NCBI GenBank assembly: GCA_900466575.1
Contig: UBMP01000007.1
Coordinates: forward strand, 1-64,000
Length of the DNA: 64,000 nucleotides
From: Hyphomicrobiales bacterium
Lineage (GTDB): Bacteria; Pseudomonadota; Alphaproteobacteria; Rhizobiales; Rhizobiaceae
Direction of reading: 5' to 3'
The notes beneath the pieces are model-generated. The model ran no database searches. It was not told the DNA's origin and saw only the letters and a program-made list of their open reading frames with translations. The position numbers and the translations under genes are program-made. Shown piece after piece: positions 32,560-44,279 of the stretch (position 1 is its first letter; each line of letters begins with the position of its first letter).

Positions 32560-32952
32560 CTACGGATTTCGTCTTTGTGTGATGGCTCCCACTGCCTCTG
32601 TCAACCGCGCCATGTCGGTTGGCTTCCCGAGATTGAGAGCATCCGCCAAGACGGAGTTCCTCCCGATGGCGGCGGGATCGGCGGCACTGGCAAGCACAAA
32701 CGGAATGCTGCGAGCCTTCAGCTGCAGAGCAACCGGCGTAACCCGCTGACCACCGAGGTCGATATCAAGAACGGCGGCATCAGGTGTCGTGTCTTCCATC
32801 AGCTCAAGAGCATGATCGACGGAGCTTGCGGGCCCCAGCACAGCAAACCCGCCTGCGGTCAAAGCGTCCTGGATTTCCAACGCGATCAAAAATTCGTCCT
32901 CGACAACGAGAACACATGAAGGGCTTGAATGAGCATGCGCTGGATGGTTCAT
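32560..32952 (-). CDS. Single-domain response regulator
   Basis: 130 residues, a receiver domain only. Acidic pair in LVVEDEFLIALEI, phosphoacceptor Asp in AAVLDIDLGG, and conserved Lys in NLGKPTDM. There is no output domain, so it acts by protein contact or as a phosphate sink. Its start overlaps the stop of the adjacent histidine kinase (ATGA), so the two form a pair. Such receiver-only partners of HWE kinases are common in alphaproteobacteria. Confidence 0.9.
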   Translation of the reverse strand: MNHPAHAHSSPSCVLVVEDEFLIALEIQDALTAGGFAVLGPASSVDHALELMEDTTPDAAVLDIDLGGQRVTPVALQLKARSIPFVLASAADPAAIGRNSVLADALNLGKPTDMARLTEAVGAITQRRNP

Positions 32953-33935
32953 AAAGCTTGCACCGGGATCCTGATTGTCGCGGCCAAACCTCCCGCGTCG
33001 TATGAAAGTTCCACGCGACCGCCAAGATGAGCTGCGGTGCCCTCGATCATCTCAGTCCCGTAACCTCTGCGTTCGGGAGGCAGAACAGACGGGCCATTTC
33101 GCTCCTGCCATCGACACATGAGATAGGTTCGCCCCTTTAATCCTTCTTCTACCGTCCAGGTCACGTTCACGATGCCATCGCTTCCCGAAAGGGCGCCGTA
33201 TTTGATCGCGTTGGTCGCCAGCTCATGAAATATCATGCTTGCGGCGAGGATTCTGGAGGGGCCGATGTGAACGGCAGGACCGTCGTAGCTGATGCGGCCA
33301 CTCCAGGCCTCACCCACCGCCTGGTGCAACAGGTCCTTGAAATCAGCGCCCTCGTTGCGTGCGGCAATTTCCTGGGCCCGGAGGGTGACGTCGAGACGAC
33401 CGAGGAAGGTGCTTCGGTACTCGGCTGCGGTCTGGCCTTCCACCTTCGTCTGCAAGGCAAGCGCCCGTACGACCGCAAAGAGGTTCTTCATCCGGTGGCG
33501 CGTCTCGGAAAGGATGAAATCCATCTCCGCGTCGTGTCGCTGGCGCTCGGTCACGTCTTCAAACAGCACCAGAATATGGGTGCTGTTGTCATCCGGATGC
33601 ACAAGGCGTCGCGCATCGACCAGGAAAGTGCGTTTTCCGATGACGGGGAAATCATGCTTCACCTCAAAGCCGATGACGGCTGCCGCCCGCGGAATGATGC
33701 CCGCGATCAGTTCGCGAAGCTCGGGAATATCCCACTGGCCATTGCCCAGGTCGAAGAGGCTCTCGCCGACGAGATCGTCGCGCTCAACCCGGAAGGTCTT
33801 GATGAAGGCGTTGTTGGCGGTCGTGACACAAAGCCGCTGATCGATAACAACGATCGGCTGCGTCATCGTATCGACGACGCCCTGGGCTTGGACGTGCCCG
33901 CTCCTCAGCAGACGGTAAAGGTCCTCCAACATCAT
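32949..33935 (-). CDS. PAS-containing HWE-family sensor histidine kinase
   Basis: 328 residues. An N-terminal PAS domain (about 18-135; VVIDQRLCVTTANNAFIKTF) and an HWE/HisKA_2 kinase core: phosphoacceptor His in SETRHRMKNLFAVVRAL, the N-box HELATNAIKYGAL, and the Trp-x-Glu of LMCRWQERNGP that names the family. No membrane segment, so it is a cytoplasmic sensor. It is translationally coupled to the receiver protein. The stimulus is unknown; similar kinases sense light, redox or stress. Confidence 0.9.
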   Translation of the reverse strand: MMLEDLYRLLRSGHVQAQGVVDTMTQPIVVIDQRLCVTTANNAFIKTFRVERDDLVGESLFDLGNGQWDIPELRELIAGIIPRAAAVIGFEVKHDFPVIGKRTFLVDARRLVHPDDNSTHILVLFEDVTERQRHDAEMDFILSETRHRMKNLFAVVRALALQTKVEGQTAAEYRSTFLGRLDVTLRAQEIAARNEGADFKDLLHQAVGEAWSGRISYDGPAVHIGPSRILAASMIFHELATNAIKYGALSGSDGIVNVTWTVEEGLKGRTYLMCRWQERNGPSVLPPERRGYGTEMIEGTAAHLGGRVELSYDAGGLAATIRIPVQAL

Positions 33936-34085
33936 CGGTCGTCCTCTTCTCCCATTTCCGGCGGTGTCTCAGTCTATTTTACGCAATATTTTTCGGGCAC
34001 TTGACGCCATGGCATGCCGCCAAGTGCTCCCGGGTGGCTAAGAAAAACGGGCAACCGGGCCTCGCGTTCCCTTGAAAATGCTGAA

Positions 34086-35183
34086 CTATGAAGGAAGCGA
34101 AAAAGCGTCCCGCGGAACGGTCAGTCTGATCAGCAGACCGTGAGGCTGCCATTCCCTAGAAACCTGCGCATTCAGCGTCCGCACCACCATTTGCTCAAGC
34201 GTCGTTCCAAACCCGGACTCTGCACTTCGAGCAGACACAGCAGGCCTCGTATCGGATTCGAGCCAGGTAATCTCGAAACTCTCTTGCCGCGAACACAGGG
34301 TTATATCCAGTCGTCCTTCCGCCACAGAAAGCGCGCCGTACTTGACCGCGTTGGTCGCGTATTCGTGAAACAGAAGCGCGAGCGTCGTCACTCTGTCGGC
34401 ACTGACAGGCGCGTCTTCACCGTGCAGCCTCCATCTCCGGTCCGCATCGTCCTCAAAGGGCGAAAGCAGGCTGGACAGGAGCGTAAACAGCGTTGTCGAT
34501 TGCTCCGTAACGGGTTCTCTGCCGCTGAAAACGGGCAAAGTCATTTCATGGGCGCGCGACAGGGAGAGAAGGCGGTCCTTCATGCTTGCAGCCAGTTCGG
34601 CCGGTGTCTGTGCCGATCGCGCGGCCAGCGTGATAATGCTGCCTGTGATCGCAAAGAGGTTCTTGATGCGATGGTGCATCTCCCGAAGCAGCAGATCCTG
34701 ATGCTTGGCCGCGCGTTTGCGATCCGAGATGTCCCGGGCGATCTTCGACGCCCCGATGATCACCCCGTCGGCATTGCGGATCGGCGAGATTGTCAGAGAG
34801 ATATCGACGAAGCTCCCGTCCTTGCGACGGCGGACCGTTTCAAAATGATCGACCCGCTCTCCGGCCCTTATCCGCGCTAGGATCGCGGGCTCCTCGTCCA
34901 GACGATCGTCGGGGATCAGTATGGTAATCGGCCGTCCTACGGCTTCTTCCATTCTGTAGCCGAAAACCCGTTCAGCGCTCTTGTTCCAGGTGGTGATGAC
35001 CCCCTGCAGGGACTTGCTGATAATGGCGTCGTCCGACGATTCGACAATGGCAGCAAGAAAGGCCGCGGCGTCGTGCCCTGGCTGTGCGGCCTTTGCATCG
35101 TCCTTAAGCTGCTGGAGACGATCTTCGGCGCTGTCGCCACATCGCTCACCATCCCCCTCAACATCATACCCTTTATTCGCCAT
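34086..35183 (-). CDS. PAS-containing HWE-family sensor histidine kinase
   Basis: 365 residues. PAS/PAC region at about 40-160 (IISKSLQGVITTWNKSAERV and PIRNADGVIIGASKIARDIS), then HWE kinase core with REMHHRIKNLFAITGSI, the N-box FHEYATNAVKYGALS and a WLE motif in ITWLESDTRP. Cytoplasmic. No dedicated response regulator is adjacent; the receiver at 32560 could serve both kinases. It lies next to the cox regulator MHYT-LytTR but is transcribed away from it. Confidence 0.9.
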   Translation of the reverse strand: MANKGYDVEGDGERCGDSAEDRLQQLKDDAKAAQPGHDAAAFLAAIVESSDDAIISKSLQGVITTWNKSAERVFGYRMEEAVGRPITILIPDDRLDEEPAILARIRAGERVDHFETVRRRKDGSFVDISLTISPIRNADGVIIGASKIARDISDRKRAAKHQDLLLREMHHRIKNLFAITGSIITLAARSAQTPAELAASMKDRLLSLSRAHEMTLPVFSGREPVTEQSTTLFTLLSSLLSPFEDDADRRWRLHGEDAPVSADRVTTLALLFHEYATNAVKYGALSVAEGRLDITLCSRQESFEITWLESDTRPAVSARSAESGFGTTLEQMVVRTLNAQVSREWQPHGLLIRLTVPRDAFSLPS

Positions 35184-35469: not shown

Positions 35470-36627
35470 ATGCTGACACCGCAGTACGATCTCATGCTTG
35501 TACTCGCCTCCGTGGCCGTTTCGGTCATGGCGTCGTTTACAGGGCTGACTCTGACGCGCGGGATTTCGGCCCTCCCGGACATGACGCGCAAGCTTCTGAT
35601 CGTGATGGCGTCGCTGTCACTCGGCGGCGGCATATGGTGCATGCACTTCGTCGCCATGCTGGCGATGCGTTTGCCGGTGCCGATCAGCTATGATGCGGCC
35701 AATACACTTGGCTCGGTGCTCATCGCCATACTCTTGTCGGGGGTTGCGCTCCTCATCATGCATTATGGTGCCCGCACGCTTCTCCGGATGGCGATCGCCG
35801 GCACCGTCCTCGGCAACGGCATCGTGGCCATGCATTATCTCGGCATGTCTGGCATTCGCGGCTGCATGCCCACGTTTCAGCCCGCCGGGCTTGTTCTGGC
35901 CGTCGTCGGCGCCACGGCAACAGGTATCCTGGCCGTATGGGTTTCGTATTCGAGGCGCACGACCAGTCACATCTTCGCCGGTGCCATCATCTTTGGCCTC
36001 TCGGTCGTGCTCGTGCATTTCGTGGCGATGGGCTGGACAAATTTTCAGGCGGGCGGCGTGAGCGGCGATTTCACGCCGATCATCGAGAACGGTACGCTGG
36101 CGCTCGTCGTCATGCTGTCCGCCTTCGTGATCTGCGGCACGTTCCTGCTCACGGCGACGAATTTCCTTCTGACCGGTGAGGCGCGCGAGGCCGCGTCTCA
36201 GGAGACCGTGCAGGTGAACACGGGCGCTCCGGCGAATCCCGATACGCCGGAAAGCACACCGGAACAGACAGTCTCGGATTTCCCCGTGCTGGAGAAGCAC
36301 AAGCTGCCCTACGAGCGCGACAAGCGCATCTACTTCATCGAGCCTGCCCAGGTCGCCGCGATCCGCGCCGAGGGGCACTACACCATCATTCATACGGCTG
36401 ACGACAAGCTGTTCTGTCCTCTCTCCATTTCGGAGGTGGAAAAGCGGCTTCACGCGGGACGATTTATCCGGACACACCGGAGCTATCTCGTGAATATCGA
36501 GCGGGTCACGGCGTTCGAGCGCGCCAAGGACAGTGGGCGATGTCTGTTCGAGGGCGTCACATCGCTCAAGTTCGTGCCGGTCAGCCGCTCATTCGTTCCG
36601 CGCGTGCGCACAGCCCTGAACATCTGA
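35470..36627 (+). CDS. MHYT-LytTR membrane-bound transcriptional regulator (CoxC/CoxH-like)
   Basis: 385 residues. The N-terminal half has seven hydrophobic helices carrying MHYT-type motifs (IWCMHFVAM, IVAMHYLGM, VLVHFVAMGW) thought to bind metal and sense gases. The C-terminal LytTR DNA-binding domain runs from about 285 to the end: IYFIEPAQVAAIRAEGHYT, SEVEKRLHAGRFIRTHRSYL. In Oligotropha carboxidovorans the proteins with this architecture, CoxC and CoxH, belong to the CO dehydrogenase gene cluster. Here it lies directly upstream of coxM, so CO-responsive activation of cox is very likely (inference). Confidence 0.85.
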   Translation: MLTPQYDLMLVLASVAVSVMASFTGLTLTRGISALPDMTRKLLIVMASLSLGGGIWCMHFVAMLAMRLPVPISYDAANTLGSVLIAILLSGVALLIMHYGARTLLRMAIAGTVLGNGIVAMHYLGMSGIRGCMPTFQPAGLVLAVVGATATGILAVWVSYSRRTTSHIFAGAIIFGLSVVLVHFVAMGWTNFQAGGVSGDFTPIIENGTLALVVMLSAFVICGTFLLTATNFLLTGEAREAASQETVQVNTGAPANPDTPESTPEQTVSDFPVLEKHKLPYERDKRIYFIEPAQVAAIRAEGHYTIIHTADDKLFCPLSISEVEKRLHAGRFIRTHRSYLVNIERVTAFERAKDSGRCLFEGVTSLKFVPVSRSFVPRVRTALNI

Positions 36628-36704: not shown

Positions 36705-36741
36705 TTCGCGTTTCGTGCAGCCTATTCGCATTTCGTGCAGC
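36705..36741 (+). promoter_or_regulatory. Tandem 17-bp direct repeat upstream of coxM, candidate LytTR site
   Basis: TTCGCGTTTCGTGCAGC (36705-36721) and TTCGCATTTCGTGCAGC (36725-36741) match at 16 of 17 positions with a 20-base period. LytTR proteins bind paired direct repeats about two helical turns apart. The site is about 105-140 bases before coxM and just after the LytTR regulator gene. A partial third copy may begin near 36745. Confidence 0.6.
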
Positions 36742-36844
36742 GCGTTTCGCATCCAGGGCCTTGGCCATTGTCGCGGCCCGGCGCCGGGATTTCTCCTCTT
36801 GTCCATGGCGGGTCCGCGAGGAGGCGGCGCGCCGGGAGGAGACC

Positions 36845-37699
36845 ATGATACCTGCACCCTTTGAATATCACCGCCCGGATTCCGTCGAGGCGGCCGTGAA
36901 ACTTCTGTCCGACTTCGGCGAGGACGCCCGCGTCGTTGCCGGCGGCCATAGCCTGATCCCGATGATGAAGCTCCGCATGACGGACTTCGGTCATCTGATC
37001 GACCTTCAGGCGATCGACGCGCTCAAAGGCATCCGCATCGACGGGCGCCGCATCACCATCGGCGCGATGACGACCCAGCACGAGATCATTCATCACGCGG
37101 GTCTTGCAACTGCCGCACCGATCCTTGCGGAGGCAGCCGGGCAGATTGCCGATCCGCAGGTGCGCTACATGGGCACGCTGGGCGGCAATGTCGCCAATGG
37201 CGATCCGGGAAACGACATGCCGGGCGTCATGCAGTGTCTTGACGCGACCTTTCACCTGAATGGCCCCGGCGGTAGCCGCGTGGTCAAGGCGCGCGATTTT
37301 TACGAGGCGGCCTATTTCACCGCGCGGGCCGAGGACGAAATCCTCACCGCCGTGAGCTTCGATACGCCGGCCGGCGGTCAGGCCTATGTCAAGCAGAAGC
37401 GCAAGATCGGCGATTATGCCACTGCCGCCGCCGCCGTTGTCATCGCCCGGTCGGGCGGACGCTGCACGGCTGCTTCAATTGCCATGACCAATCTCGCCGA
37501 CACGCCTGTCTGGTGTGAAGAGGCGGGGGCTGCCCTTGCCGGCACGGACCTGTCCGCTGCCGCGATCGAGGCGGCCGTTGGCGCCATGGACCGGGCGATC
37601 GATCCGCAAAGCGACAACCGTGGGCCTGCCGAGTTCAAGCGCCATGCCGCCGCCGTCGTGCTGCGCCGGGCGATTGCCGCCGCTGCCGCCCGCGCCTGA
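36845..37699 (+). CDS. coxM: Aerobic CO dehydrogenase, FAD-binding medium subunit
   Basis: 284 residues (288 in Oligotropha). The FAD-binding signatures are AGGHSLIP and [16 protein letters not shown]. The subunit passes electrons from the Fe-S subunit to the quinone pool. The ATG at 36845 follows GGGAGGAGACC. First gene of the coxMSLDEFG operon, with coxS 11 bases downstream. A xanthine-dehydrogenase FAD subunit is excluded by the CoxL active-site motif. Confidence 0.95.
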
Positions 37700-37710
37700 A
37701 GGAGATGACA

Positions 37711-38202
37711 ATGAGCAAGATGCACATCACGCTGACGGTCAACGGCAAGCAGGAGGAGTTGCTTGCCGAACCGCGCGAACTTCTGATCCACGTACTGCGC
37801 GAGCGGCTGTCGATCACCGGCCCGCATATCGGCTGCGAGACGTCGCATTGCGGCGCCTGCACGGTCGACATGAACGGGAAATCGGTCAAGTCCTGCACGG
37901 TTCTCGCCGCACAGGCCAACGGGGCCGAGATCACCACCATCGAAGGGCTCGGGACGCCCGATAGTCTGCACGTCCTGCAGACGATGTTCCGCGAGCATCA
38001 TGGCCTGCAATGCGGCTTCTGCACGCCGGGCATGATCACCCGTGCCTATCGTCTGCTGCAGGAAAATCCGGACCCGAGCGAGGAGGAGATCCGCTACGCC
38101 ATGGCGGGCAATCTCTGCCGCTGCACCGGATATCAGAACATCGTGAAGGCCATCATGGCTGCCGCGTCGGAACTGAACGCGGTCAAGGAGGCAGCCCAAT
38201 GA
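37711..38202 (+). CDS. coxS: Aerobic CO dehydrogenase, [2Fe-2S] small subunit
   Basis: 163 residues with two [2Fe-2S] domains. The N-terminal plant-type cluster is [16 protein letters not shown] with a final cysteine in SVKSC. The C-terminal cluster uses CGFCTPGM and [12 protein letters not shown] start at 37711, giving a seven-base gap to the AAGGAG ribosome site; the ATG at 37705 is too close to it. The stop overlaps the coxL start (ATGA). Confidence 0.95.
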
Positions 38203-40619
38203 ACGACATGACACCCCCGAAGGACGAGCGCGCGGTCGCGCTCAAGGGTCTCGGCGCCTCGCGCAAGCGCGTCGAAGACGTGCGCTTCACACAGGGCAAG
38301 GGAAACTACGTCGACGATCTGAAGCTGCCGGGCATGCTCTTCGGCGATTTCGTCCGCTCGCCCTATGCCCATGCCCGCATCAAGTCGATCAATAGCGAGA
38401 AGGCCAAGGCTTTGCCCGGCGTCGTCGCCGTGTTGACCGCCGCCGATCTCGCGCCGCTGAACCTGCACTGGATGCCGACGCTGGCCGGCGACGTGCAGAT
38501 GGTTCTGGCGGATGGAAAGGTCCTGTTCCAGGGCCAGGAAGTCGCCTTCGTCGTCGCCAACGACCGTTATGTCGCCGCCGATGCGGTGGAACTGGTCGAG
38601 GTCGAATACGAGGAGCTTCCCGTCGTGGTCGATCCGTTCAAGGCGCAGGCGCCCGACGCGCCGGTGCTGCGCGAGGATCTGGCCGGAAAGACCTCCGGCG
38701 CCCATGGTCCGCGCCGCCATCACAACCATATCTTCACCTGGGAACAGGGTGACAGGGACGCGACCGAGAAGGTGCTTTCCTCCGCCGATGTGGTTGCCGA
38801 GGAAATGGTCTATTATCATCGCACGCATCCCTGTCCGCTGGAAACCTGCGGCTGCGTCGCCTCGATGGACAAGGTCAACGGCAAGCTGACGGTGCATGGC
38901 ACGTTCCAGGCGCCGCATGCCGTGCGAACCGTCGCCTCGCTGATCTCCGGCATCGCCGAACACAATATCCGCATCATCTCGCCCGATATCGGCGGCGGCT
39001 TCGGCAACAAGGTCGGCGTCTATCCCGGCTATATCTGCGCCATCGTCGCCTCCATCGTCACCGGCAAGCCGGTGAAGTGGATCGAAGACCGGATGGAAAA
39101 CCTGATGGCGACCGCCTTTGCCCGCGACTACTGGATGAAGGGGCGGATCTCGGCGACGAAGGACGGCCGCATCACCGGTCTGTCCTGCCATGTGACGGCC
39201 GATCACGGTGCCTTCGATGCCTGTGCGGACCCGACGAAATTCCCGGCCGGCTTCTTCAATATCTGCACGGGCTCCTATGATATCCCGGTGGCGCATCTGG
39301 CGGTCGACGGGGTCTACACCAACAAGGCGCCCGGCGGCGTGGCCTACCGCTGCTCCTTCCGGGTGACCGAGGCGGCCTATTTCATCGAGCGGATGATCGA
39401 GGTTCTGGCAATCAAGCTCGGCATGGATGCCGCCGAATTGCGGACGAAGAACTTCATCCGCAAGGATCAGTTCCCCTACCAGTCGGCGCTTGGCTGGGAA
39501 TATGATTCCGGCGATTATCATACCGCCTGGGACAAGGCGCTCAAGGCCGTGGACTATGCCGGCCTGCGCCGCGAACAGGCGGACCGCATCGCTGATTTCA
39601 AGGCCGGCAAGACGCGCAAGCTGCTCGGCATCGGGCTGACGCATTTCACCGAAATCGTCGGCGCCGGCCCGGTCAAGAATTGCGATATTCTCGGGCTCGG
39701 CATGTTCGATAGCTGCGAAATCCGCATTCACCCGACGGGATCGGCCATCGCGCGCCTTGGCACGATCAGCCAGGGCCAGGGTCATGCCACCACCTTCGCG
39801 CAGATCCTTGCCTCCGAAATCGGCTTGCCCGCCGATGACATCACGGTGGAGGAAGGCGACACCGATACCGCGCCCTATGGGCTCGGCACCTATGGTTCGC
39901 GTTCCACACCGGTGGCGGGTGCGGCGACCGCCATGGCCGGGCGGAAGATCCGCGCCAAGGCGCAGATGATCGCGGCCTACCTGCTCGAGGTTCATGACGA
40001 CGATGTCGAATGGGATATCGACCGCTTCGTGGTCAAGGGCGCTCCGGAGCGCTTCAAGACGATGAAGGAAATCGCCTTCGCTGCCTATAATCAGGCGATC
40101 CCCGGTCTGGAACCCGGTCTTGAGGCGGTGAGCTATTACGATCCGCCGAACATGACCTATCCCTTCGGCGCCTATATCTGCGTGATGGAGATCGACGTCG
40201 ATACGGGCGAGCACAAGGTCCGGCAGTTCTACGCGCTGGACGATTGCGGCACCCGCATCAACCCGATGATCATCGAGGGGCAGGTTCATGGCGGCGCGAC
40301 GGAGGGCTATGCCATCGCGATGGGTCAGGAAATTGCCTATGACGAAATCGGCAACGTGAAGACCGGAACGCTGATGGACTTCTTCCTGCCGACGGCCTGG
40401 GAGACGCCGCATTACACGACCGACTTTACCGTCACGCCGTCCCCGCATCATCCGATCGGCGCGAAGGGTGTCGGCGAGAGCCCAAATGTCGGCTCGGTGC
40501 CTGCCTTCTCGAATGCGGTGCATGATGCCTTCCGAGCTTTCGGGCTGACGCAATCGCACATGCCGCACGATCACTGGCGGATATGGAAGGTCGCCCACGA
40601 TCTCGGCCTGCACGGCTGA
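38199..40619 (+). CDS. coxL: Aerobic CO dehydrogenase form I, molybdenum/copper large subunit
   Basis: 806 residues (809 in Oligotropha). It oxidises CO with water to CO2 at a Mo-S-Cu centre bound to molybdopterin cytosine dinucleotide. The active-site loop AYRCSFR (residues 382-388) carries the copper-ligating Cys385 and matches the form I pattern AYxCSFR, not the form II AYRGAGR of general hydroxylases. The C-terminal GAKGVGESP region with the catalytic Glu is also present. The ATG at 38199 overlaps the coxS stop. A longer frame upstream lies within coxS and is not coding. Confidence 0.97.
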
Positions 40620-40679: not shown

Positions 40680-41549
40680 ATGACCTGGAAAACGCTGAAG
40701 GGCGATCTGGCGCGTCTAGGCTATGTGGCCTCCGACGATCTCGCCATGGCGCTGCATCTCTCCGTGACGCTTGGCAAACCGCTGCTTCTGGAAGGCGCGG
40801 CCGGCGTCGGCAAGACCGAGCTTGCCAAGGTGCTTTCCACGCTGCTCGACACCCGTCTGATCCGCCTGCAATGCTATGAGGGAATCGACGCATCGGCGGC
40901 GATCTACGAGTGGAACTATCAGCGCCAATTGCTCTCGATCCGCGCCGGCGACGGCGCGGCGGGCGAGGACGCCGAAGACCGCATCTTTTCGGAGAAATAT
41001 CTGCTGGCGCGGCCGCTTCTGCAGGCCATCCGCGAGGAGCGGGCGCCGGTGCTTCTTCTGGACGAGGTGGATCGCGCCGACGAGGAATTCGAGGCCTATC
41101 TGCTGGAACTGCTGTCCGATTTCCAGGTGACGATTCCTGAACTCGGGACGATCCGCGCGACGGCGCGTCCGCATGTCATCCTGACGGCCAACGGGACGCG
41201 CGACCTCTCCGACGCACTGCGCCGCCGCTGCCTCTACAGCTATGTCGACTACCCCGACCGCGACACGGAGACAGCGATCCTCAAGGCGCATATGCCGGGT
41301 ATCGAGGGACGACTCGCTGCCCAGATTGTCGGCGTCGTGCAGGCGTTGCGCAAAGAGGAGCTTGAGAAGAAACCCGGCGTTGCCGAGATGCTCGACTGGG
41401 CGGCGGCTATTGCCGGTCTCGGGATCAACGATCTCGCCGATGATCCGGTAACGCTGCAGGCCACGCTCGTCTGCCTTCTGAAGACCCGCGCCGACCGCGA
41501 CGCGGTGCCGCTGGAAGTGCAAGAGCGACTTGTCGGAAAGGCGGCCTGA
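40680..41549 (+). CDS. coxD: CoxD, MoxR-type AAA+ ATPase for CO dehydrogenase maturation
   Basis: 289 residues. Walker A GAAGVGKT (39-46), Walker B LLLDEVDRA (125-133), arginine-finger region RDLSDALRRRC. In Oligotropha CoxD is a membrane-associated chaperone needed to insert sulfur and copper into the CoxL active site, together with the VWA protein CoxE. The stop overlaps the coxE start (TGATG). Confidence 0.93.
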   Translation: MTWKTLKGDLARLGYVASDDLAMALHLSVTLGKPLLLEGAAGVGKTELAKVLSTLLDTRLIRLQCYEGIDASAAIYEWNYQRQLLSIRAGDGAAGEDAEDRIFSEKYLLARPLLQAIREERAPVLLLDEVDRADEEFEAYLLELLSDFQVTIPELGTIRATARPHVILTANGTRDLSDALRRRCLYSYVDYPDRDTETAILKAHMPGIEGRLAAQIVGVVQALRKEELEKKPGVAEMLDWAAAIAGLGINDLADDPVTLQATLVCLLKTRADRDAVPLEVQERLVGKAA

Positions 41550-42727
41550 TGCGCGCGCGCCGTTTTCCCGAACGCGAGGACATGACCCGCCGCATGGCCG
41601 GCTTCATGGCACATCTGCGCCTCAACGGTTGGCCAGCCGGTATCGGCGAAAGCGCGGACGCCCTGCGGGCGCTTTCCGTCATTGATGCAACGGACCGCGG
41701 CGAGGTACGCGAGGCACTTCGCGCCGTCTGTGCCAGCGGTGCCGAGCGCCACCGACGTTTCGATGACCTGTTCGACGCCTACTGGCATTCAGACGGCCGC
41801 GCGCGGCAGCGTCCGACCGACACGTCGGCCCGGCGCAAACCGCCGGCGCAGATGTCCGATCTTCTGGGTTCCCTGCCGTCATCGGCAAGGGGTGGCGTAC
41901 CGGATGCGCCCGAAGCCGCACAGGATGGCGAAGCGGAAGGCGGCGGCACGGGGAAGCTCGTCGCCTCGCGGCTCGATGCGCTACGGCGGACCGACATGCG
42001 TCATTTCTCGACGCCGGAGGAGATTGCTGCCGCCGAAGCCGTGGCCCTGCGGCTGGCGCGGGCGCTTCGAGACCGCCGGTCGCGGCGTCTGCGGCGGGCG
42101 CGGGCCGGGTCGACGCTCGATCTGCGCCGGATGGCCCGTCGCTCGATTGCGCATGGCGGCGAGCCGCTGGAGCTATTGCGTCGCAAACGGCCCGATCGCC
42201 CGGTCAACATCGTCGCGCTCTGTGATGTATCCGGGTCGATGAGCTTGTATGCGCGGATCTTTCTCGCCTTCCTGCGAGGGCTGATGAGCGCGGACAGCCG
42301 GACGGATGTCTTTCTCTTCCATACCCGTCTGGTTCGCATCTCCGATGTGCTGCGCGACGGGAACGGAGCGAGGGCGCTCGAGAAGCTGACGCTGATGGCG
42401 AACGGCTTCGGCGGCGGCACGCAGATTGGTCTCAATCTGAAGCGGTTCAACGACCAATACGCCCGGCAGGCCGTGAATGGGCGCACCGTGTTGCTCATAC
42501 TCTCCGACGGTTACGACACCGGCGCGCCGGAGGCGATCGGCACCGAATTGCAGCGGCTGAAGCGGCGCGGCGGGCGGATCGTCTGGCTCAACCCCCTGAA
42601 GGACTGGGCAGGCTACGAGCCCGTGGCGCGCGGCATGGCTGCCGCATTGCCGCATCTCGATCTCTTTGCGGCCGCCAATACGCTCGATGCCCTGGCGGCC
42701 CTTGAACCACAACTTCACCGGATCTGA
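41549..42727 (+). CDS. coxE: CoxE, von Willebrand factor A-domain maturation protein
   Basis: 392 residues. The C-terminal VWA domain has the MIDAS motif Asp226-x-Ser-x-Ser in CDVSGSMSLYARI, preceded by an Arg-rich region (RLRRARAGSTLDLRR). CoxE works with CoxD in CO dehydrogenase metal-centre assembly. The middle region 85-140 is low-complexity and probably a flexible linker. Confidence 0.92.
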   Translation: MRARRFPEREDMTRRMAGFMAHLRLNGWPAGIGESADALRALSVIDATDRGEVREALRAVCASGAERHRRFDDLFDAYWHSDGRARQRPTDTSARRKPPAQMSDLLGSLPSSARGGVPDAPEAAQDGEAEGGGTGKLVASRLDALRRTDMRHFSTPEEIAAAEAVALRLARALRDRRSRRLRRARAGSTLDLRRMARRSIAHGGEPLELLRRKRPDRPVNIVALCDVSGSMSLYARIFLAFLRGLMSADSRTDVFLFHTRLVRISDVLRDGNGARALEKLTLMANGFGGGTQIGLNLKRFNDQYARQAVNGRTVLLILSDGYDTGAPEAIGTELQRLKRRGGRIVWLNPLKDWAGYEPVARGMAAALPHLDLFAAANTLDALAALEPQLHRI

Positions 42728-42742
42728 GCACGGGAGGCTTCG

Positions 42743-43825
42743 ATGCGCGTACCCATGAAGATCGACGACACGGCCGGTAGCCTGAAGCGCGCCCATCGTC
42801 CCTATGTCTTGGCCACCGTCGTGCGCACGGTCGCCGCAACCGCTGCCAAGGCAGGCGCAAAGGCCATTATCCTGGAGGATGGCAGCATTGCCGAGGGCTG
42901 GATTGGCGGCGGCTGCGCCCGCGGCGCGGTGCTGAAGGCGGCCAAAGACGCCTTCGCCGACGGTCAGCCACGGCTGGTCTCGGTTCAGCCGGAAGACCTG
43001 CTGTCCGAACTTGGTGTCGCTCCGGGCGACGTCCGCGATGGCGTCCGCTTTGCCCGCAACATGTGCCCTTCGAAGGGGACGATGGATGTCTTCATCGAGC
43101 CGGTGCTGCCCCTGCCGGAACTCTATGTTCTCGGCGCCAGCCCCGTGGCGGTCGCCCTTGCCGATATCGCGCGGCGCTTCGGCTTCCGCACGATTGCGTG
43201 TGCGCCGGCGGAAGACCAGGCGGCCTTTGCAGAGGCGGACGAGCGGATCGAGGGCATGCTTTTGCCCACAGGCGGGGAGAGCGAGCGGTATATCGTCGTC
43301 TCCACGCAAGGCCGCGGCGACGAGGCCGGCCTGACGGCCGCAGCCTCCGCAACCGGCGCCTATGTCGCCTTCGTCGGCAGCCGCGCGAAGGCCGCGTCGC
43401 TCCGCGAGAAGCTCGCCGCCCGCGGTCTGCCGCAGGAGGCGCTTGACCGCATCAAAGCGCCGGCGGGCCTTGATATCGGTGCGGTGACGCCTGAGGAAAT
43501 CGCGCTGTCGATCATTGCCGAGATGATCGGCATCCGGCGACACGGCCTTCGCGGGCGCGATGCAGGAAACGCCGCCGCCGACCGGGCTGAGGTGGGTGAC
43601 CGGAAGCTGGAAACTTCAGAGCCGCTTCCGGGTGAAGCAGTCTCCACGCTGCAGGACGCCGCACCACAGGCGGCACGGCCGAAAAGCTGTCTCATGGCGC
43701 CCCTCGCGGCCGTTGCCGCGCTCCTGTTCCAGCCATCGGCTTCGAATTCCGCACTCGCCGGGACGGCCGAACGGCCGGTTCCCGACCATGAACTTCTTCT
43801 CCGGCTTCACTCCTGTTGCATGTAA
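42743..43825 (+). CDS. coxF: CoxF, XdhC/CoxI-family cofactor maturation protein with C-terminal extension
   Basis: 360 residues. Residues 1-275 form the XdhC/CoxI fold: GSIAEGWIGGGCARGAVLKA at the N-terminus and a Rossmann part LPELYVLGASPVAVALADIA. Family members deliver sulfurated molybdenum cofactor to the apoenzyme. The last about 85 residues are unusual: a polar, Pro/Ala-rich segment, then a short hydrophobic run MAPLAAVAALLF and a C-terminal tail. CoxF of Oligotropha is about 280 residues, so the tail is an addition, perhaps a membrane anchor. RBS GGGAGG. Confidence 0.88.
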   Translation: MRVPMKIDDTAGSLKRAHRPYVLATVVRTVAATAAKAGAKAIILEDGSIAEGWIGGGCARGAVLKAAKDAFADGQPRLVSVQPEDLLSELGVAPGDVRDGVRFARNMCPSKGTMDVFIEPVLPLPELYVLGASPVAVALADIARRFGFRTIACAPAEDQAAFAEADERIEGMLLPTGGESERYIVVSTQGRGDEAGLTAAASATGAYVAFVGSRAKAASLREKLAARGLPQEALDRIKAPAGLDIGAVTPEEIALSIIAEMIGIRRHGLRGRDAGNAAADRAEVGDRKLETSEPLPGEAVSTLQDAAPQAARPKSCLMAPLAAVAALLFQPSASNSALAGTAERPVPDHELLLRLHSCCM

Positions 43826-43838
43826 AGGATATCCGCAA

Positions 43839-44279
43839 ATGGAAATGACAGACGAAATCCGCATCAAGGCACCCAAGGCACGCGTCTATGAAGCCCTCAA
43901 TGACCCGGCCGTGCTGAAGGCCGCGATCCCCGGCTGTGAATCGTTGGAGCAGGTGTCTGATGAGGAGCTGGAAGCCAAAGTCGTTCTGAAGGTCGGGCCG
44001 GTCAAGGCAACCTTCGGCGGCAAGGTCACGCTCGACCGCAGCGGTGCGCCCGACAGTTTCTCGCTCAAGGGCGAAGGCAGCGGTGGCGTTGCAGGGTTTG
44101 CCAAGGGCGGCGCGGATGTCGAGCTGGTGGCCGACGGCGACGAGACCATCCTGCGCTACGCCGCGAAGGCCGAAATCGGCGGAAAGATCGCCATGCTCGG
44201 CAGTCGGCTGATCAACAGCACGGCGCAGAAACTTGCCGAGCAGTTCTTCACGAACTTCTCGGCAAGACTGGCGTCATGA
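43839..44279 (+). CDS. coxG: CoxG, SRPBCC-family CO dehydrogenase-associated protein without membrane anchor
   Basis: 146 residues, one CoxG/SRPBCC domain: DEIRIKAPKARVYEALNDPA at the start and GKVTLDRSGAPDSFSLKGEG in the middle. CoxG proteins usually add a linker and a C-terminal hydrophobic anchor (about 205 residues in all) that recruits CO dehydrogenase to the membrane and quinone pool. Here the protein stops after the folded domain (FFTNFSARLAS). The start at 43839 follows AAGGATATCC. Confidence 0.88.
   Translation: MEMTDEIRIKAPKARVYEALNDPAVLKAAIPGCESLEQVSDEELEAKVVLKVGPVKATFGGKVTLDRSGAPDSFSLKGEGSGGVAGFAKGGADVELVADGDETILRYAAKAEIGGKIAMLGSRLINSTAQKLAEQFFTNFSARLAS

Follow-up and report, generated by a model that had tools for sequence, protein, structure and literature searches.

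The closest described relative of the system studied here is CoxC of Afipia carboxidovorans OM5. CoxC is a membrane MHYT-LytTR protein that represses the coxB promoter, PcoxB, and is released from it by CO together with copper (Durante-Rodriguez et al. 2024, PMC11347149). EMSA and reporter assays have shown that its LytTR domain binds three direct repeats at PcoxB (PMC11347149). That paper gives these as three TTNNNGCN at 18–21 bp intervals, assigned by resemblance to a short consensus. It also describes RcoM1 of Paraburkholderia xenovorans, which binds three TTCNNGCA with 12–13 bp spacers, and canonical LytTR sites, which consist of a pair of 9-bp direct repeats 10–13 bp apart (PMC11347149). 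An earlier note on the DNA analysed here considered the targets of CoxC/CoxH-type regulators to be poorly defined, a view overtaken by the OM5 CoxC target shown in 2024 (PMC11347149). In the literature searched, CoxC from this one organism is the only MHYT-LytTR regulator with a tested DNA target, and the open-access literature searched contained no earlier report of a CoxC-type operator directly before coxM in the clade considered below.

The window (the whole stretch of 64,000 nucleotides that was analysed) carries a form I CO dehydrogenase gene cluster, coxMSLDEFG. All of its genes lie on the + strand. The first, coxM (36845–37699), encodes the FAD subunit of aerobic CO dehydrogenase and has a ribosome-binding site, GGGAGGAG, just upstream. 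The Fe-S subunit gene coxS (37705–38202) was assigned by position and sequence, and the form I large subunit gene coxL (38202–40619) by its AYRCSFR motif and a TIGR02416 score of 1423.7 against a cut-off of 991. The accessory genes coxD, coxE, coxF and coxG (40680–44279) were named from position and sequence, coxG by Pfam COXG (1.8e-33). Ahead of coxM, also on the + strand, lies a coxC-like gene (35470–36627) for a protein of 385 aa with an MHYT membrane sensor (Pfam MHYT, 3.3e-28) and a LytTR DNA-binding domain (Pfam LytTR, 2.2e-19), both above cut-off and the only Pfam domains found in it. Solved structures include no relative at E 1e-3, and a search of the window's genome at 1e-30 gave no coxB homologue. 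Beside coxC, the minus strand (32560–35183) encodes two PAS-HWE histidine kinases together with a response regulator, transcribed away from the cox cluster.

The intergenic gap of 217 bp that separates the coxC stop (36627) from the coxM ATG (36845) holds two near-identical 17-bp copies, TTCGCGTTTCGTGCAGC at 36705–36721 and TTCGCATTTCGTGCAGC at 36725–36741. They are identical at 16 of 17 bases and start 20 bp apart. The earlier note had placed such a pair, with a 20-base period, between the MHYT-LytTR gene and coxM, and its coordinates and period are exact. While both copies are real, the description as a pair overlooked a degenerate third copy at 36746–36761, which coincides with a third-repeat signal at +21 throughout the family. 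On the + strand, putative operator repeat I (36705–36720) reads TTCGCGTTTCGTGCAG, with its core TTCGTGCA at 36712–36719. Putative repeat II (36725–36740, period 20) reads TTCGCATTTCGTGCAG, with the same core at 36732–36739. The nearest relatives, Rhizobium subbaraonis (L044) and G358 (L021), carry both without change. Putative repeat III, TTCGCATCCAGGGCCT, follows 21 bp after repeat II on the same strand and has the core CCAGGGCC; its TTCGCN2CCAGGGC is common to the window and these two relatives. The three cores are separated by spacers of 12 and 13 bp, and an upstream CGCA forms part of each strong repeat.

Compared with OM5 PcoxB, the regulator architecture (MHYT-LytTR) and the target genes are the same, and the direct repeats are probably three here too, the third being weak in the window. 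The position differs, since PcoxB precedes coxB whereas the window site directly precedes coxM, and the window repeats do not fit three TTNNNGCN at 18–21 bp intervals as literally published for OM5. The RcoM1 operator, as that paper describes it, is a direct-repeat triplet bound by a LytTR regulator that responds to CO and controls cox genes. Both strong window cores match TTCNNGCA exactly and with a 12-bp spacer, but the third copy, at 13 bp, is degenerate, and the CGCA ahead of each strong core belongs to the repeat. The regulators also differ: RcoM is a heme-sensor activator, while the window regulator is a membrane protein with MHYT as its sensor domain. Like canonical LytTR sites, the window family has direct repeats about two helical turns apart. 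In contrast to the canonical pair, its repeats number three and their conserved block spans about 13 bp. The site is thus best described as a further example of an operator type already on record.

Pattern searches found TTCGCNTTTCGTGCAGC only in this gap within the 5.14-Mb genome. In 150 dinucleotide shuffles of the gap, the best 17-mer pair 17–60 bp apart shared at most 14 bases (mean 11.8), compared with 16 observed. The sole other near-identical 17-mer pair of the window, at 42047 and 42089 (16/17, period 42), lies inside the coxE frame (41549–42727). An RcoM-like pair alone was tried as a motif and rejected as unspecific, giving eight own-genome matches and two in a reversed control. Elsewhere in the genome, a site of 18.0 bits with the weight matrix described next, TGTCTGATTCGTGCAG / CTTTCAGTTCGTGCAG (L223:1494; G000:C44, about 175656), is without the CGCA half and overlaps weak ORFs only.

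Regulator homologues were gathered from relatives, the order, named genome contigs and plasmids. We built a weight matrix of 16 positions from sixteen units, both repeats of eight loci, with the window excluded. Scored with this matrix from other loci, the window pair reaches 47.4; window repeat III scores 0.3 bits and is without TTNNNGC. The earlier note proposed looking for the motif upstream of coxM in other genomes with MHYT-LytTR genes, and it is conserved there. A pair of at least 16 bits in the same orientation, facing coxM, is present upstream of coxM in 86 of 94 loci with coxC and coxM, and in a second, order-wide sample gathered by coxM in 41 of 45 loci with adjacent coxC; these loci are partly related to one another, and both samples include some of the training genomes again (e.g. 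L071, L099, L149, L159). Most pairs among the 94 loci score 24–47 bits, and site I usually lies 100–240 bp ahead of the coxM start. When redundancy was removed (downstream regions more than 80% identical), 73 of the 81 strongest loci stayed. Background scores stayed below 15 bits, with a maximum of 14.8 in 1000 shuffled 320-mers and 13.1 in 1508 other real 320-mers. The strict pattern CGCRNTTCGTG-N7-13-CGCRNTTCGTG had two matches in 385 genomes of the class, both between coxC and coxM.

The third repeat is also a family feature. Sliding the unit matrix along 72 non-redundant upstream regions revealed a repeat whose offset from site II is exactly +21 (z = 7.5 relative to the remaining offsets); upstream of site I, no fourth repeat appeared at −20 or −21. 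The putative site probably has three repeats, two strong and one weak, and is not a pair. A few coxM loci with adjacent coxC (L170, L178, L049, L065, L093) have no recognisable operator motif, and the DNA specificity of their CoxC may have diverged.

Nearly all loci have the order coxC then coxM, and linkage alone could carry a repeat along with these genes. In principle, a duplication that arose by chance, a terminator or some other intergenic repeat without regulatory function could be preserved this way. However, the motif is retained across dozens of genera, with repeats I and II kept while their flanks diverge. The shuffles fail to reproduce the pair, a terminator-like stem was looked for and not seen, and the repeat stays with coxM when coxC lies elsewhere. 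Such an origin is extremely improbable.

Two genomes have coxM and coxC apart. In G078 an intact coxC homologue stands alone on contig C4 and the cox operon is on C5. Here the operator lies 119 bp ahead of coxM, and its three repeats, TTCGCATTTCATGAAA / TTCGCATTTCGTGCAG / ACCGCATTTCGCAGAT, are clear. G202, where coxC is also unlinked, has a weaker pair (22.5). Three genomes (G116, G076 and G309), the only negative loci of this type, have coxM with no coxC at E 1e-60 and no motif, and three loci with an MHYT-LytTR gene and no coxM nearby (L056, L104, L118) have no operator motif. Since G078 and G202 keep the motif and these six loci are without it, the site accompanies coxM together with the presence of the regulator. 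It thus appears to behave as a trans-acting operator should. Conservation before coxM and absence where coxC is undetected support the earlier reading of the repeat as a LytTR site controlling form I CO dehydrogenase. Three loci initially taken for divergent coxC/coxM arrangements (L007, L011, L015) were rejected as minus-strand loci. The dissociation argument therefore rests on G078, with its unlinked coxC, and on G337, where the target is another.

In G337 a motif of 44.7 bits (L160:2640-2676; G337:C1, about 3935639) lies divergent from an MHYT-LytTR gene with 48% identity. It faces hypA, a ferredoxin gene and cooS (TIGR01702, E 1.1e-220), followed by genes for a cooC-like ATPase, hypB-like and hydrogenase-like proteins, up to L160:15608; for cooC, hypB and the membrane subunit, the names come from reading the sequence. 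A search of G337 at 1e-70 gave no aerobic coxM. This arrangement comes from one genome only; cooS was found neither among 385 genomes of the class nor among 19 further genomes of the family. Anaerobic nickel CO dehydrogenase operons are run by CooA in well-known cases.

The window's genome encodes a second LytTR domain (G000:C29:142894), and another regulator, such as a LytTR protein acting in trans, could bind the site, with coxC associated through linkage only. Against this, the operator remains at coxM in genomes with an unlinked coxC, is missing where coxC is undetected, and in G337 sits beside an MHYT-LytTR gene without aerobic cox genes. We consider another binder very improbable. The coxC-like protein is presumed to be the one that binds 36705–36761, and coxM is presumed to be the first gene of the target operon. 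Taken together, these comparisons make it very probable that 36705–36761 serves as operator for the CoxC-type MHYT-LytTR regulator whose gene lies immediately before it.

The family motif also bears on the operator described in OM5. The PcoxB1 primer that mutates repeat 1 changes TTACCGCC to GGACCCCC (PMC11347149). Because this sets repeat 1 as TTACCGCC, we infer from the stated 18–21 bp intervals that the other two published repeats would be TTTGGGCA and TTGCGGCA; the periods would then be 29 and 26 bp. Read with the family motif, PcoxB has CGCAGTTCATGCG / CGCCGTTGGTGGA / GTCGTTTGGGCA at 21 and 20 bp. The matrix pair there consists of CCCGCAGTTCATGCGT and ACCGCCGTTGGTGGAA at a distance of 21 bp, and TTTGGGCA follows in register after another 20 bp. 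The published mutation also breaks the CGC of ACCGCCGTTGGTGGAA, so the reported loss of binding fits both registers. Among the loci compared for the PcoxB register, the nearest cox relative, a Bradyrhizobium betae plasmid, has no coxB, and the closest coxB homologue locus scanned has no motif. The published OM5 register probably needs correction. In 29 kb of pHCG3, the highest-scoring pair falls outside PcoxB, in the coxC-coxM gap (22.5, L124:15159), where a pair is also kept in the B. betae plasmid (28.7), and a further pHCG3 pair lies between coxH and coxI (17.0, L124:24371). We predict from these matches that pHCG3 carries CoxC/CoxH operators besides PcoxB, before coxM and between coxH and coxI; with PcoxB included, the sites are L124:15159, L124:12119 and L124:24371.

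How the operator may work can be outlined from its geometry and from OM5 CoxC. With periods of 20 and 21 bp, all three repeats fall on one face of the helix. Three LytTR domains would occupy them on that face, probably binding cooperatively, just upstream of the coxM promoter or overlapping it. By analogy with A. carboxidovorans CoxC, in cells without CO the membrane-anchored CoxC would hold the operator and block the cox operon. CO, bound via copper in the MHYT domain, would then release CoxC from the operator. Alternatively, CoxC may bind this same site and activate coxM, as RcoM does from three repeats. Both strong cores equal the RcoM1 consensus with its 12-bp spacer, and a scan of the window gap found no good sigma-70 hexamers, as expected of an activator-dependent promoter. 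Neither the sigma-70 scan nor EM on 73 loci found a positionally fixed core promoter element downstream of the operator. A missing sigma-70 consensus is weak evidence, though, as Alphaproteobacterial promoters frequently score poorly on it, and the sole tested member, OM5 CoxC, is a repressor that CO releases from its DNA. Activation is thus a possible but less favored mode of action, and we lean towards a role for the operator in repression in this clade.

A broader proposal, which we put forward tentatively, is that a single code (CGCATTTCGTGCA three times at 20–21 bp) serves the alphaproteobacterial MHYT-LytTR CO sensors. At least one genome, G337, would have adopted this code a second time, for an anaerobic nickel CO dehydrogenase operon, the published OM5 operator would be out of register, and pHCG3 would hold two further operators. 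G337 suggests that anaerobic CO metabolism, too, has taken up the copper-MHYT sensor. For the model strain, the family motif points to a revised register of the repeats and predicts unrecognised operators. A conserved motif with strict position and spacing provides a testable operator for the control of aerobic CO oxidation in Alphaproteobacteria, and with it the DNA code of a barely studied class of sensors becomes testable across a large clade.
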